NCBI GenBank assembly: GCA_020847545.1
Contig: JADLBV010000081.1
Coordinates: 1 to 64,000, forward strand
DNA from: Phycisphaerales bacterium
GTDB lineage: Bacteria; Planctomycetota; Phycisphaerae; Tepidisphaerales; Tepidisphaeraceae
Length of the DNA stretch: 64,000 nt
Reading direction: 5' to 3'
Shown here: positions 31,102-62,367 of the stretch, piece after piece
How positions within the stretch are numbered: position 1 is the stretch's first letter
How the letters are laid out: each line of letters opens with the position of its first letter
Notes under the pieces: generated by a model
Told to the model about the DNA's origin: nothing
Database searches by the model: none
What the model saw: only the letters and a program-made list of their open reading frames with translations
Position numbers and translations under genes: made by a program

Positions 31102-31203
31102 GGCCTGATTGAAACACCTCAAACCCCTTCCTTCCACCCTCATTGACTTGGCGTATTGCCTTTAATCCGGCTAACATACCACCTAACTATTAACGAGATG
31201 CAC

Positions 31204-32697
31204 ATGGCCAAGCAGGATGACCTTTACAAACAGAAGTTCCGACCCGATGCCGATGCCGCGCTGGACCGGCAAATCGACGACGCCCTCGGCGGGTTGTCGA
31301 TGGACGACCTCTACAACCAGTCCGCCCCCGCCCCCCGCGCCTCCGAACCCCTCGCGGCCAAGGGAATGCGAATCGGCCGGGTCATCCGCGTCGATCAGGA
31401 CAACGTCTTTGTCGATTTCGGCGGCAAAAGTCAGGGGATCGCCTCCATCCTTCAATTCGACGAAATCCCCACCGTCGGCCAGGAGATGGAATTTCACGTT
31501 GATCGATTTGATCCGCGCGAAGGGTTGCTGGTCCTCACCCGCAAAGGGGCGGTTGCCACCAATGTGACCTGGGAAAACCTCGAAATCGGCCAGGTCGTCG
31601 AAGGAACCGTCACCGGCATGAACAAAGGTGGCCTCGAACTGGAGATCAAAAGCATGAGGGCCTTCATGCCGGCCGGCCAGGTGGACATCTACTTCCAAAA
31701 GGACATCTCCACCCTGATCGGCCAGCGAATGACCGTTGAGGTGACGCAATTCGACCGTGCCGCGAAAAATCTGATCGTCTCCCGCCGAAATGTCCTCGAA
31801 CGCGAACGCGAACAGCAGAAGCAAAAATTGATGGAGGAACTGGCCGAGGGGCAAATCCGCCGTGGAACCGTCCGTAGCGTGATGGATTTTGGCGCGTTTG
31901 TCGATCTGGGGGGCGTCGATGGTTTGCTGCACGTCTCCGAAATGACCTTCAAACGCGGCCGGCAAAACGCGGCCGAGTTCGTCAAGGTGGGCGACGCCCT
32001 CGATGTCAAAGTCCTGAAAATCGACCGCGACACCGGCAAACTCTCCCTGAGCCTCAAACAAGCCCGCGGCACCGACCCCTGGGCCGATGCCGCCGTCAAA
32101 TACCCGGTCGGGACCACCCTGACCGGCCGGGTCACACGGGTTGAATCGTTCGGCGCATTTATCGAGGTCGAGGAAGGTCTCGAAGGCCTCCTGCCCGTGA
32201 GCGAAATAAGCTGGCAACGGATCAAATCGCCGCAAGATGTGCTCCACGAAGGAGATACGATCAAGCTGGTGGTGATCTCACTCGATGCGGTCCAAAAACG
32301 CATCTCCTTCAGCCTCAAACAGGCCGGCCCCGACCCATGGGCCACCATCAACGACCGCTATGCCGTGGACATGGTGGTGGATGGGACGATCACCCGTATC
32401 GCCGAATTTGGTGCGTTTGTCGAACTGGAATCGGGCCTCGAAGGTCTGGTTCACATCAGCGAACTGGCCGGCCAGCGTGTCACTTCGGTGGCGTCGGCAG
32501 TCAAAGCAGGCCAAATCGCGCGCGTCCGAATCCTCGACATCGACAAGGACAACCGCCGAATCGGCCTGTCGATCAAAAAAGTGGCCGAGATCGAGGCCGC
32601 CCCGCCATCGGCCGCTGCCACAACCCCCGCCCCCGCGAAAAAGAAAAAAAACGAACTTCGTGGCGGGCTGGATTTCAATTTTTGGAACAAGAAATAA
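31204..32697 (+). CDS. rpsA: 30S ribosomal protein S1-like, five S1 repeats
   Basis: This 497-residue RNA-binding protein has five S1 OB-fold repeats, at about residues 50-115, 125-190, 215-283, 302-370 and 388-455. The last three are canonical (MDFGAFVDLGGVDGLLHVSE; ESFGAFIEVEEGLEGLLPVSE; AEFGAFVELESGLEGLVHISE). The first two are degenerate, as in S1 proteins where they contact the ribosome. E. coli S1 has six repeats. The C-terminus is Lys-rich. The start may be ATG 31204 or ATG 31198; neither has a strong Shine-Dalgarno, a known trait of rpsA genes. Confidence 0.85.
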   Translation: MAKQDDLYKQKFRPDADAALDRQIDDALGGLSMDDLYNQSAPAPRASEPLAAKGMRIGRVIRVDQDNVFVDFGGKSQGIASILQFDEIPTVGQEMEFHVDRFDPREGLLVLTRKGAVATNVTWENLEIGQVVEGTVTGMNKGGLELEIKSMRAFMPAGQVDIYFQKDISTLIGQRMTVEVTQFDRAAKNLIVSRRNVLEREREQQKQKLMEELAEGQIRRGTVRSVMDFGAFVDLGGVDGLLHVSEMTFKRGRQNAAEFVKVGDALDVKVLKIDRDTGKLSLSLKQARGTDPWADAAVKYPVGTTLTGRVTRVESFGAFIEVEEGLEGLLPVSEISWQRIKSPQDVLHEGDTIKLVVISLDAVQKRISFSLKQAGPDPWATINDRYAVDMVVDGTITRIAEFGAFVELESGLEGLVHISELAGQRVTSVASAVKAGQIARVRILDIDKDNRRIGLSIKKVAEIEAAPPSAAATTPAPAKKKKNELRGGLDFNFWNKK

Positions 32698-32811: not shown

Positions 32812-32857
32812 AGAAATACAAATGCGATTGCCCTGTTCGGCGGGTGAAGCCAGCAGC

Positions 32858-32885
32858 TTGGGATCAACGAATTTTTGCCTATACT
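32858..32885 (+). promoter_or_regulatory. Promoter placing the start of transcription at the GTG codon
   Basis: TTGGGA (32858-32863), a 16-base spacer and TATACT (32880-32885) form a sigma-70-type promoter. The -10 box ends 6 bases before GTG 32892, so transcription should begin at or next to the start codon. The paralogue at 34873 has the same 6-base distance. Confidence 0.65.
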
Positions 32886-32891
32886 GTGGAT

Positions 32892-34754
32892 GTGGTTTCA
32901 TCCGCCGCTACCGATCCATTGCCGGCCTTATCCCCCGATCGGCCACAATCCGATTCCCACGCACTCCCCCCGCTGGACCGTTGGTTCTGGCTGGCGGTTT
33001 TGCTGATCGCGATGGTGGTGATCCCGCGATCCGCGATGATCTCTTGGTCACACAGCGGTTATTATGATGATGAGTGGCACATCCGCCATGGATTGCTGTT
33101 CGTTACAAAAAACCTTTCAGGCCTTCCAATTCATTCGGACAACCCACCATTGGGTGAGGGGATCATGGTCTTGCCGCTGGTAGCGCTCGGCTGCACACCG
33201 GATGAACCGCTGAATCCAGCAACACTGCCGCCCGATTGGACCAATTCCACCTCAACCAATCCAACATTGGCGCGCCAAGCATTGGTCTATCGTCAACATG
33301 TGATCTTCGGCCGACATCTTCAGCCGGATGTGATTTTGCTCATTATCGCCATTTGGAAATCCATCTTATGGATTCCTTGCGCAGCATTGATCTTCCTCTG
33401 GTGCCGTGCCCTTTATGGGCTTTCATCCGCATGGCTTGTAACAACAATCCTGCTTATCGAACCCACTGTCGCTGCCCATATTCCCACCGCTGCGGTGGAT
33501 ATTTTCAGCGCGGAAGCTCTTGTATTTATGAGCTTTTTCGCCTGGCGATATTTCGTTGTGCCCCGCCTGTGGAGACTGGTTTTGCTAACCGGCGCCGTCG
33601 CATCGGTCATGCTGATTAAGAATTCGGGGATCATCGCTCCGGCGATTGTATTGATAGTGGCCATTGGGCATTGGTTTATCCACCCTCTCATGCGGGACAC
33701 GCGATGGGAAGCGATTCGGCCAACTCTCCGCGCGCGGCTGAACACCATCTTGCTCTCCGGCCTGCTCGTGATTTTCTGGATATGGATTTTATTGCTTTTT
33801 GATGTTTCGCGGCCGCGTAATTTCTCATGGCCATTGTCGTACACCAATCCTCATTCCTTTTTTGCCACTTATGTTGATCCCCTTTTCAACCGGAATTGGC
33901 CGGCGGGGTTGTACATCGGTTCCGTCATTGGGGCTGTTCAACATTCCCAATCGGGGCATTGGGCTTACCTGCTGGGACACCATAAAATCGGCGGATGGTG
34001 GTATTATTTCCCAGTCGTCGCCACCTTCAAAATCCCCATTGGAATCGGCATCGTCATGCTGGCCGGCCTGGCCTCGCTTAGGCGTTACCGGCCACGCTGG
34101 GAGGAATGGTTCATCCTCGTACCAATGCTCGCATGGATGGCCATGCTCATGGCTTCAACCATCAATGTCGGATTTCGACATATGCTTCCTCCCTATCTGT
34201 TGATGTTGATGCTGGCCGGCCGTTGTCTGGCCTTCCCTGGCATTGTGTGGAAAACCGTCGCATGGCTGGGAACCGTCGCTGCCGCGGTTCATACGATCAG
34301 TTACCACCCGGATTATTTGAGCTACATCAATTTTCCCCGGAACAAGCCGTATCTGAGCATCAATGATTCAAATCTTGATTGGGGACAGTCCTTCAAGGAA
34401 ATTGCGCACTGGATTGACGAACATCCACAGGGAAATCGTCCAATTTATTTTGCCTATTATTTTACCAGTCAACCCACCAATATCTGGTACTATCTCGGCG
34501 ATCGTGTCCAGCAAATCACTCGGACCGAATCACCCCCCACTCATGGAGTATTAATCATCAGCCCGATATGGGTGGCTGGAATTTATTACGAATCCGATAA
34601 TTACGGCCAGTTGCGTGACCTTGATCCCGGCGCCGTCATCGGCCATAGCATGTTGGTCTATGATCTGGATAAACACGCACCGCCGGGGGAACCTTTTGTC
34701 TGGAAATCTCCCATCCCCCGTAAAATAATAGGCTGGAATAAATCGGAGCAGTAG
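32892..34754 (+). CDS. Multi-membrane-span GT-C-type glycosyltransferase (family 39-like), paralogue 1
   Basis: This 620-residue integral membrane protein has about ten hydrophobic segments, the first at residues 31-47. The following loop carries SGYYDDEWHIRHG, with the acidic pair (Asp59-Asp60-Glu61) expected in the catalytic periplasmic loop of GT-C enzymes. A soluble C-terminal part includes INDSNLDWGQSFKEIAHWI. GT-C proteins transfer sugars from lipid-phosphate donors to proteins, lipids or polymers; the acceptor is unknown. I chose the GTG at 32892 because no Shine-Dalgarno is present, a promoter ends 6 bases before it, and this start aligns the protein residue for residue with the neighbouring paralogue (PPLDxW at 26-31 in both). 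The longer open frame to 32337 is out of register with any family. Confidence 0.8.
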   Translation: MVSSAATDPLPALSPDRPQSDSHALPPLDRWFWLAVLLIAMVVIPRSAMISWSHSGYYDDEWHIRHGLLFVTKNLSGLPIHSDNPPLGEGIMVLPLVALGCTPDEPLNPATLPPDWTNSTSTNPTLARQALVYRQHVIFGRHLQPDVILLIIAIWKSILWIPCAALIFLWCRALYGLSSAWLVTTILLIEPTVAAHIPTAAVDIFSAEALVFMSFFAWRYFVVPRLWRLVLLTGAVASVMLIKNSGIIAPAIVLIVAIGHWFIHPLMRDTRWEAIRPTLRARLNTILLSGLLVIFWIWILLLFDVSRPRNFSWPLSYTNPHSFFATYVDPLFNRNWPAGLYIGSVIGAVQHSQSGHWAYLLGHHKIGGWWYYFPVVATFKIPIGIGIVMLAGLASLRRYRPRWEEWFILVPMLAWMAMLMASTINVGFRHMLPPYLLMLMLAGRCLAFPGIVWKTVAWLGTVAAAVHTISYHPDYLSYINFPRNKPYLSINDSNLDWGQSFKEIAHWIDEHPQGNRPIYFAYYFTSQPTNIWYYLGDRVQQITRTESPPTHGVLIISPIWVAGIYYESDNYGQLRDLDPGAVIGHSMLVYDLDKHAPPGEPFVWKSPIPRKIIGWNKSEQ

Positions 34755-34836
34755 TTGTTATAAGCCTGTACATTCCTTTGAACGGCCTTGATTGATTTGC
34801 CATCGGACCGATCAATCCTCCTCCTTGGCTGACCGG

Positions 34837-34866
34837 TTGAGACCCTGCCAAAGAGATGTGTATACT
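34837..34866 (+). promoter_or_regulatory. Promoter placing the start of transcription at the GTG codon, second copy
   Basis: TTGAGA (34837-34842), an 18-base spacer and TATACT (34861-34866) precede GTG 34873 by 6 bases, the same arrangement as at 32858-32892 although the surrounding bases differ. There is no Shine-Dalgarno before this GTG or before the in-frame ATG at 34900. Confidence 0.65.
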
Positions 34867-34872
34867 TTGAGT

Positions 34873-36783
34873 GTGCCAACCCACCCTATTTCAGAATCGA
34901 TGCCGGTCTTATCCATCAATAAGAAATTAACTGATTCATCCCACCTGCCCCCCTTGGACCATTGGCTCTGGCTGGCAACCCTTTTGATCGCGCTCGTGGT
35001 CATCCCCCGTTCGGCTATGATTTCATGGGCGCACAGCGGATATATCGATGATGATTGGCATATCCGCCGGGGCCTGCTGTTTCTCACGAAGAATCTATCC
35101 GGCCGACCCATTTCCATTGAAAATCCTCCCTTCGCCGATGGCATGATGGTTTTGCCATTGGTCGCGCTGGGCTGCACGCCGGATGAACCATTAAATCCAG
35201 CGACTTTGCCGCCCGGTTGGACAGATCACAGTTCAACCAACCCAAAGGTCGCACATGATTCGCTGGTCTACCGAACCCATGTCATCTTCGGACACAGCCT
35301 GACGCCGAATGTCATCCTGCTGATCATCGCCATTTGGAAGGCGTTCTTATGGGTTCCATGCGCTGCGCTGATCTTTCATTGGTGCCGTGCGCTATATGGC
35401 TTGGGGGCGGCATGGCTGGTGACCGTGATGCTTCTGGTGGAGCCGAATATCGCCGCGCACATTCCACCGGCCTCGGCGGATATTCTCAGTGCTGAATCCT
35501 TTATCCTGCTGGGGTTCTGCGCATGGCGGTATTTCGCATCGCCATCCCGCTGGAAATTCGCGTTGCTGACCTTCGCTACCGCGCTGGTGATGCAGATGAA
35601 AACCAGCGGCATCATCGCGCCGTTCATCGTATTGCTGTGGGCGGTTTTTGAATGGTACATCCGCCCACTTCGCCACGGCATCCCATGGTCCACGCTTCGG
35701 CCGACATTGCGGCCGCAATTCAACAAGATGCTGCTGGCGGGAATACTGGTGGTGGGATGGTGTTGGGCAATGTTGCTCTTCGACATCTCCATTCCCCGCA
35801 ACAACACCTGGTCCATTTCTTACACCAACCCCGACTCGTTTGTGGCACACTATCTCGAACCGTTGCTGGACCTGCGCTGGCCGGGCGGGCTGTATATCGC
35901 CGCGGTCGTCGGCGAGTTGCAGCACATGCGGCATGGACACTGGGGATTTATTCTCGGCCAACATCGCATCGGCGGCTGGTGGTACTATTTCCCCGTCCTC
36001 AGCACGTTCAAAGTCCCTATCGGTTTTGGACTGGTTTTTCTGGCGGCGATCTTTTCCCTGAAAAAATTGCGCCCGCGATGGACGGAACTATACCTGATAT
36101 TACCTCTGCTGGTCTGGATCCCGCCGATTTTAATGACCCGATTGAATATCGGCTTTCGACATGTTTTTGCCCCGTATCTCCTGGCGATAATCCTCAGTTC
36201 ACGCTGCATGACCCATGCGGGGAAGATCGTGGCGTGCATCCTGTGGATCGCGGTCATCACTTCGGGCGTTCATGCCTTGAGTTATCACCCCGATTACCTG
36301 AGCTATGTCAATTTCCCCCGCCACAAGCCTTATTTAAGCATCAATGACTCCAACTTCGATTGGAGCCAATCGCTGAAAGAGGTTGCTCAATGGCTTGATA
36401 AGCATCCACAGCCTGGTCGCCCGGTTTATCTTGGATATTTTTATATGGGAGATCTTCCCAAACCTAAATTGTGGTTTTATCTCGGCGATCGCGTGATACC
36501 CTTGGAACGCACAGAACCACCCCCCACCCACGGCATCCTGATCATCAGCCCGGTCTGGGAAGCCGGGTTGTATTACTGGCCCGACACCTTCGCCCAGCTT
36601 CGCGCCATGGAACCCGATGCGATCATCGGCCATTGCATGTTGGTTTATGATCTGGACAAGCACGCCCCGCCGGGCAAGCCGTTTCATTGGGATCCGCCGC
36701 CATACCGGTTCATCCCCGGCTGGCATGGACCCCAACCCCGGCCTTCGGCCCAATCGGCCGGTTCGCCCGCCACATTGCCTTGA
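34873..36783 (+). CDS. Multi-membrane-span GT-C-type glycosyltransferase (family 39-like), paralogue 2
   Basis: This 636-residue paralogue of the upstream gene is very similar along its length: LPPLDHW, VVIPRSAMISWAHSGYIDDDWHIRRG, LVALGCTPDEPLNPATLPPGW, RIGGWWYYFPV, YHPDYLSYVNFPRHKPYLSINDSNFDW. The loop acids are Asp59-Asp61 (DDD instead of DDE). The C-terminus is about 15 residues longer and Pro-rich. It arose by tandem duplication, and both copies look intact. An ATG at 34900 is an alternative start that would lose nine residues. Its end lies 20 bases from the convergent formaldehyde dehydrogenase gene. Confidence 0.8.
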   Translation: MPTHPISESMPVLSINKKLTDSSHLPPLDHWLWLATLLIALVVIPRSAMISWAHSGYIDDDWHIRRGLLFLTKNLSGRPISIENPPFADGMMVLPLVALGCTPDEPLNPATLPPGWTDHSSTNPKVAHDSLVYRTHVIFGHSLTPNVILLIIAIWKAFLWVPCAALIFHWCRALYGLGAAWLVTVMLLVEPNIAAHIPPASADILSAESFILLGFCAWRYFASPSRWKFALLTFATALVMQMKTSGIIAPFIVLLWAVFEWYIRPLRHGIPWSTLRPTLRPQFNKMLLAGILVVGWCWAMLLFDISIPRNNTWSISYTNPDSFVAHYLEPLLDLRWPGGLYIAAVVGELQHMRHGHWGFILGQHRIGGWWYYFPVLSTFKVPIGFGLVFLAAIFSLKKLRPRWTELYLILPLLVWIPPILMTRLNIGFRHVFAPYLLAIILSSRCMTHAGKIVACILWIAVITSGVHALSYHPDYLSYVNFPRHKPYLSINDSNFDWSQSLKEVAQWLDKHPQPGRPVYLGYFYMGDLPKPKLWFYLGDRVIPLERTEPPPTHGILIISPVWEAGLYYWPDTFAQLRAMEPDAIIGHCMLVYDLDKHAPPGKPFHWDPPPYRFIPGWHGPQPRPSAQSAGSPATLP

Positions 36784-61324: not shown

Positions 61325-61354
61325 TTCGCATTGAATTGGTGCGATTTCTATAAT
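61325..61354 (+). promoter_or_regulatory. Promoter close to the polyprenyl synthase start
   Basis: TTCGCA (61325-61330), an 18-base spacer and a consensus TATAAT (61349-61354) lie 8 bases before ATG 61363. Transcription should begin within two or three bases of the start codon. No Shine-Dalgarno is seen. Confidence 0.55.
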
Positions 61355-61362
61355 TTGCCGCG

Positions 61363-62367
61363 ATGAAAGAGTCCGCACAAATGCCAGATTCATCGGCCGA
61401 TTTGCTGGCGGCCGTGGCGGATTGCATCGGCCCGGAGCTGGCGGAGGTGGAAAAACTCTTCCACCTCGAGCTTGCCAGCGGGTTTAAGTGCGTTGATGCC
61501 CTCGTCCGGCACGTCAGCCGATTTCGCGGCAAGATGCTTCGCCCGATGCTGGTCCTTTTGACCGGCAAAGCCTGCGGCAAGCTCACCCCCTCCCACATCA
61601 CCATCGCCACCGTCGTCGAAATGGTCCACATGGCGACCCTGGTTCACGATGATGTCCTCGACGAAGCGGAACTTCGCCGCAAGGGAGCCACCATCAACCA
61701 CCTCCGCGGCAACGAATCGGCCGTTCTTCTGGGGGATTACCTCATCAGCCACTCCTATCACCTCTGCTCCAGCCTCGATTCGCAGATGGCCAGCCGAGCC
61801 ATCGCCCGCACCACCAATCAGGTGTGCGAAGGGGAGCTTCTCCAGATCGACAACCGCAACAATCTGGACCTCGATGAGAAAACCTACACCCAGATCATCA
61901 CCCACAAGACCGCCGTTTTGTGCGCCGCCTGCTGCCAGTTGGGGGCCACCCTCGCGGGGGCATCCGCCGACACCATCTCCCGCATGGAACGCTTCGGGCT
62001 TTCCCTGGGGATCGCCTTCCAGATTCAAGATGACATCCTGGACATCCTCGGCCACACCTCGCAGGTGGGCAAAACCCTCGGCATCGACATCGAAAAGGGG
62101 AAGATGACCCTCCCCATGATCCATTTCATGAAAACCGCCCCCCGCGAACACCGGGAACTGCTCCGTTCCCTGCTCACCATCCATGAACCGGACCAGGTGG
62201 AGAAGATCCGCAACCTGATCCTCCCCAGCGATTCAATCGATTACGCCCGCAATCAGGCCCGCCAGTACACCCAACAAGCCCGCCGATCCATCGCGGGGTT
62301 GCCCGACTCCCCCGCGAAGGACGTGCTGGACGCCATGGCCGATTTCGTCATCTGCCGAACGATTTAA
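61363..62367 (+). CDS. Polyprenyl diphosphate synthase (long-chain, IspB-like)
   Basis: This 334-residue trans-prenyltransferase elongates allylic diphosphates with isopentenyl diphosphate. The first Asp-rich motif is DDVLD (96-100) after LVH, and the second is DDILD (223-227) in FQIQDDILDILG. GKMLRPML marks the substrate-binding Lys/Arg region. The residues before the first motif are small, which favours a long chain such as the quinone side chain. An in-frame ATG at 61381 is a possible alternative start. Confidence 0.9.
   Translation: MKESAQMPDSSADLLAAVADCIGPELAEVEKLFHLELASGFKCVDALVRHVSRFRGKMLRPMLVLLTGKACGKLTPSHITIATVVEMVHMATLVHDDVLDEAELRRKGATINHLRGNESAVLLGDYLISHSYHLCSSLDSQMASRAIARTTNQVCEGELLQIDNRNNLDLDEKTYTQIITHKTAVLCAACCQLGATLAGASADTISRMERFGLSLGIAFQIQDDILDILGHTSQVGKTLGIDIEKGKMTLPMIHFMKTAPREHRELLRSLLTIHEPDQVEKIRNLILPSDSIDYARNQARQYTQQARRSIAGLPDSPAKDVLDAMADFVICRTI

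Follow-up and report, generated by a model that had tools for sequence, protein, structure and literature searches.

The 64,000-nucleotide (nt) stretch of contig JADLBV010000081.1 analysed here, which we call the window, belongs to the metagenome-assembled genome (MAG) of an uncultured Phycisphaerales bacterium, 3.75 Mb in 162 contigs. On its forward strand lie two tandem paralogous genes, gene 1 and gene 2, for GT-C-like membrane proteins, each with a −10-like hexamer shortly before a GTG codon that is its putative leaderless start (Table 1). The −10/start arrangement of both genes, its conservation at gene 1 in a sister species and an in-frame enrichment of the same arrangement in sampled stretches of several genomes were observed directly; conservation and enrichment beyond chance, as leaderless genes should display, were found in the lineage.

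Table 1. Features at the starts of gene 1 and gene 2 (window coordinates; G001 is the closest genome)
Feature	Position	Strand	Basis and remarks
36-nt block, −35 box to last base before GTG	32856..32891	+	blastn against G001, 83%, E 2.4e-7
−35-like box of gene 1, TTGGGA	32858..32863	+	6/6 bases kept in G001; alone not above background
−10 box of gene 1, TATACT	32880..32885	+	identical in G001; upstream flank TTTTTGCC
Alternative in-frame GTG abutting gene 1 TATACT	32886..32888	+	ATG in G001
Gene 1, GT-C-like membrane protein, 620 amino acids, proposed leaderless GTG start	32892..34754	+	sequence; relatives match PMT_2
Alternative in-frame TTG of gene 1	32919..32921	+	aligned with gene 2 ATG 34900
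−35-like box of gene 2, TTGAGA	34837..34842	+	sequence, promoter scan
−10 box of gene 2, TATACT	34861..34866	+	sequence
Alternative in-frame TTG abutting gene 2 TATACT	34867..34869	+	sequence
Gene 2, paralogue, 636 amino acids, proposed leaderless GTG start	34873..36783	+	sequence
Alternative ATG start of gene 2	34900..34902	+	no Shine-Dalgarno motif upstream

In gene 1, 16 nt separate TTGGGA from TATACT and 6 nt (GTGGAT) separate TATACT from GTG 32892, while in gene 2 there are 18 nt between TTGAGA and TATACT and 6 nt (TTGAGT) between TATACT and GTG 34873; the first-pass annotation had placed both hexamers correctly, base for base. The first base of TATACT is 12 nt before the GTG in both genes, the position of the TANNNT-like −10 signal of TA-led genes. 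Reading the sequence 5′ of either GTG reveals no Shine-Dalgarno (SD)-like purine run, as expected of a leaderless gene and as had been claimed. The promoter match by itself is at chance level, with four sigma-70-like sites between 32600 and 37000 where shuffling predicts 4.4, and the two sites at the gene starts are the highest-scoring of that scan. The architecture is significant because of its conservation and its in-frame enrichment in the genome samples, not because of the promoter match.

The closest genome, G001, is a Phycisphaerales bacterium MAG of the same genus (record JADYZN010000026.1; NCBI: Planctomycetota, Phycisphaerae), and it holds a single copy of the gene (L037:2977-4902) between the same neighbours, an S1-domain gene and an alcohol dehydrogenase gene. 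Its start region reads TTGGGA-16-TATACT-N6-GTG. When the 194-nt interval between the S1 gene and gene 1 was compared with its 832-nt counterpart in G001, the 36-nt block listed in Table 1 was the only significant match. Compared without gaps, the two sequences share 0-4 of every 10 nt from −150 to −41 and 6, 5, 10 and 9 in the successive tens from −40 to −1, which places the start of the conserved block near −40; from there it continues into the gene. An in-frame TGA within the promoter spacer of G001 leaves ATG(−6), GTG(0) and TTG(+27) as possible starts, and the G001 protein therefore cannot begin upstream of ATG(−6). The longer frame from ATG 32337, to which the first-pass annotation had drawn attention, does exist in the window, as does one from TTG 34792 for gene 2; as the reading frame of gene 1 it is rejected for G001 by this stop and, in the window, is still open and without support. 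In the upstream neighbourhood, the protein encoded directly before gene 1 (31156-32697) has four S1 domains and is ribosomal S1-like.

Close homologues (E at most 1e-60) were limited to six, in 5 of the 61 genomes searched, with no further ones in 26 genomes of the order. Four of the six (gene 1, gene 2, and the genes of G001 and G014) have TATACT 6 or 7 nt before a GTG. In the G014 homologue, which is about 36-39% identical, TATACT-N7-GTG is found at the first start codon of the frame. The G001 protein is 0.70 identical to gene 1 and 0.50 to gene 2 over the first 40 columns, and 0.47-0.65 and 0.78-0.85 identical to them, respectively, over columns 200-440. Set against window 32886-36783, the G001 gene looks like a recombinant of the tandem copies that would have kept the promoter and start of gene 1 with a gene-2-like body, an inference from these alignments. 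Elsewhere in G001, a segment of about 150 nt (L085:16784-16942) has more than 30 similar places and is either a dispersed repeat or a shared coding motif.

The arrangement is not confined to the tandem pair. Codon-usage gene calling with a simple gene caller on 733,207 bases of the window's own genome gave 544 genes, and the same procedure was applied to stretches of G001, G014, G013, G027, G041, Escherichia coli K-12 and Deinococcus radiodurans MP1. We counted −10-like hexamers 5-9 nt 5′ of in-frame ATG or GTG candidates, took as the expectation the average over windows of the same size 15-59 nt upstream, and counted out-of-frame ATG and GTG likewise as a control. TATACT was excluded from the final count because the first own-genome stretches had been picked at TATACT-N6/7-RTG places; each site was counted once, and the P values are rough Poisson estimates. 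Hexamers with at most one mismatch to TATAAT were found at 37 in-frame starts against 21.2 expected (P 1.2e-3) and at 6 off-frame codons against 16.7. These figures replace an initial 49 versus 23.4, which had been inflated by the TATACT-chosen stretches and by double-counted sites. For TAnnnT, the own-genome count was 101 against 74.4 (P 2.0e-3). Enrichment was also found in G001 (TATAAT-like, 9 versus 3.8 expected) and, for TAnnnT, in G013 (37 versus 15.7, P 3e-6), G014 (12 versus 5.1) and G027 (16 versus 9.7). The positive control, Deinococcus, with its known leaderless genes, gave 19 versus 7.6, and E. coli, the negative control, showed no enrichment of TAnnnT (17 versus 25.6). SD-like motifs precede 136 of 1758 candidate starts, compared with 37 at the control distance, indicating that SD-led genes coexist with these.

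Orthologous starts in G001 provide a gene-by-gene view. The test comprised 93 own/G001 pairs of at least 60% identity, lower pairs being dropped; the gene 1/G001 pair (59.4% identity) fell outside its rows and was analysed apart. The G001 stretches had been picked where the matching own-genome stretches were rich in candidates, which raises the number of rows, not conservation. In 21 rows the own genome places a TATAAT-like box 5-9 nt upstream of an in-frame start, and G001 keeps both elements in 19 of them. Two of these rows fall on a single site internal to a LysR-type coding sequence (window 28291) and a third is a duplicate; without them 18 distinct sites remain, of which 16 keep both; among controls at least 15 nt away, both are kept in 10/28 (in-frame) and 5/19 (off-frame). 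A base-by-base comparison of 18 sites, including gene 1 and excluding gene 2 and 28291, gave identities of 99/108 for the hexamer, 72/118 for the spacer to the start and 343/503 for the upstream flank. The contrast between hexamer and spacer indicates that the box and its distance to the start are maintained although the bases in between drift.

We consider it likely that both genes have leaderless GTG starts and belong, as ordinary members, to a class of leaderless genes common in this Phycisphaerae lineage. Sigma-70 promoters usually have 6-7 nt between the −10 box and +1. Here, each gene would have its own sigma-70-type promoter with 6 nt between the −10 box and the start codon; RNA polymerase would begin about 7 nt after the box, on the G of the GTG, the mRNA would begin at the start codon with a leader of zero to a few nucleotides, and ribosomes would initiate on the 5′-terminal GUG without an SD sequence. 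Where transcription starts, which start codon is used and how translation proceeds are what we infer from sequence. The proposal of leaderless GTG starts, already made in the first-pass annotation, gains support from the conserved block and in-frame stop of G001, from TATACT-N7-GTG in G014, from the enrichment in the lineage and from the distance kept among orthologues. For gene 1 the leaderless reading appears strongly supported, and for gene 2 it is supported by analogy. The tandem pair is not special, as the same arrangement occurs at many other genes. More broadly, leaderless or near-leaderless expression, GUG starts included, may well be a standing second mode of expression across much of the Phycisphaerae lineage, with selection acting on the −10-to-start distance gene by gene.

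Among the alternatives, the TATACT boxes could be real promoters with translation beginning 27 nt further on, at TTG 32919 and ATG 34900, behind a short leader without an SD sequence. Similarity between the paralogues is indeed much stronger from these codons onwards, and gene 2 has an ATG there, but gene 1 and G001 would both need a TTG start, and neither codon is preceded by an SD motif. Moreover, the eight codons just upstream of TTG 32919 (32895-32918) differ between gene 1 and G001 at eight bases, distributed as 2, 1 and 5 over codon positions 1, 2 and 3 with no indel; this position-3 bias is that of translated DNA and argues against a start at TTG 32919, leaving this explanation unlikely. 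A start at the codon abutting TATACT, on an mRNA from an unseen upstream promoter, would draw on the presence of an in-frame NTG at that place in gene 1 (GTG 32886), gene 2 (TTG 34867) and G001 (ATG). We judge it very unlikely, as no conservation with G001 is seen further upstream than −41 and the own-genome sample shows no excess of starts lying 0-2 nt from a −10 box, which speaks against such a codon as the start. In another gene (L095), the ATG at distance 0 is ATA in G001 and the ATG at distance 6 is kept, which is the same choice of start as that proposed for gene 1 and gene 2. Finally, the boxes might have arisen by chance, with both genes transcribed by read-through from upstream; this would fit the shuffle-level promoter scan and the background-level −35 scores, but it is hard to reconcile with a block selectively conserved in G001 and with in-frame enrichment across several genomes, and we give it hardly any credence.

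Several observations nevertheless weigh against leaderless GTG starts or their generality. The −35 boxes (TTGGGA/16 and TTGAGA/18), which the first-pass annotation had called good, are present, but they fail as evidence, since −35 scores of at least 4/6 are equally frequent at start-adjacent −10 boxes (16/49 rows) and in the background (104/337). A second in-frame NTG directly follows TATACT at both genes, residues 2-9 of gene 2 are dissimilar to gene 1, and gene 2 has no orthologue of its own promoter type. The homologues of G021 (ATG start) and G010 have no −10 box near the start. In the class relative G041, TAnnnT gave no signal (22 versus 37.1 expected), and in the own genome the looser motif xAxxxT (4/6) was not enriched (159 versus 158.8). 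The exact pattern TATACT-N6/7-RTG is likewise not enriched across the whole genome, with 21 places compared with 45 for the reversed pattern; 10 of the 21 are in-frame gene starts, gene 1 included.

Genes of the leaderless kind are already known, and computational work has suggested them for Planctomycetes. A survey of 953 bacterial genomes defined TA-led genes by a TANNNT signal that precedes the start codon by about 12 bp; it described leaderless genes as widespread, with a share of over 20% in Actinobacteria and Deinococcus-Thermus (Zheng et al. 2011, PMC3160421). The genes described here share that −10-like signal and its distance; the main text of that study does not contain the term ‘planctomyc’, and the present analysis adds conservation of the −10/start distance among orthologues. 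In mycobacteria, a 5′-terminal AUG or GUG is reported to suffice for translation, while leaderless GTG/GUG starts perform poorly in E. coli (Shell et al. 2015, PMC4633059); that work rests on measured 5′ ends and translation, which here are predicted. Planctomycetes, represented by one species, have been listed among the phyla with few SD genes, a bias ascribed to leaderless mRNA and/or S1 (PMC5397173). Base composition, as used there, cannot separate these two causes, whereas the signal described here is a positioned −10 hexamer specific to in-frame starts. Phycisphaerae are also included in a table of anti-SD types (PMC10783764), and among the papers listed by the literature searches made here, abstract openings included, no mapped transcription starts for Phycisphaerae were found. 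If the leaderless interpretation is true, start codons in these planctomycetes ought to be annotated with the −10 box position as a guide, because a ribosome-binding site is absent from many genes and annotation programs may pass over a GTG that is the true start. Leaderless translation could then also be tested comparatively in a phylum for which the earlier inference, in the study cited, drew on base composition in one species.

Translated from the GTGs, the two proteins align without gaps at their N-termini, with PPLDxW at residues 26-31 and an acidic pair at 59-60 in both, as had been described. Neither matches a Pfam family (a single insignificant and unrelated match had an E of 0.17), and both lack a match to PMT_2 (PF13231) at E up to 10; NCBIfam (E up to 0.001) and PDB profile searches with the window proteins also gave no match. 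Relatives provide the connection to the PMT_2 GT-C glycosyltransferases: among ten homologues scanned, six match PMT_2 and one matches PMT (E up to 0.01), two of the ten scoring above the Pfam cut-off. D59 is invariant across 13 aligned sequences, and there are 10-11 hydrophobic segments. A GT-C-like identity is thus reasonable and rests on these relatives, the window proteins differing from the family in that neither matches it. The AlphaFold2 model had a mean pLDDT of 37 and was unusable. Five matches to the same membrane protein family lie on one contig of G014 (G014:C10; L024, L028, L030), suggesting a tandem paralogue array.

No 16S gene was found in the window's own MAG, and Rfam and tRNA scans of the window returned no matches. 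At the proposed starts, overlapping start motifs (ATGTG at 32890-32894 and GTGTG at 34871-34875) create out-of-frame start codons two bases upstream. Another leaderless candidate is found at window 61349-61363, where TATAAT-N8-ATG precedes a polyprenyl synthetase gene and is nearly unchanged in G001.

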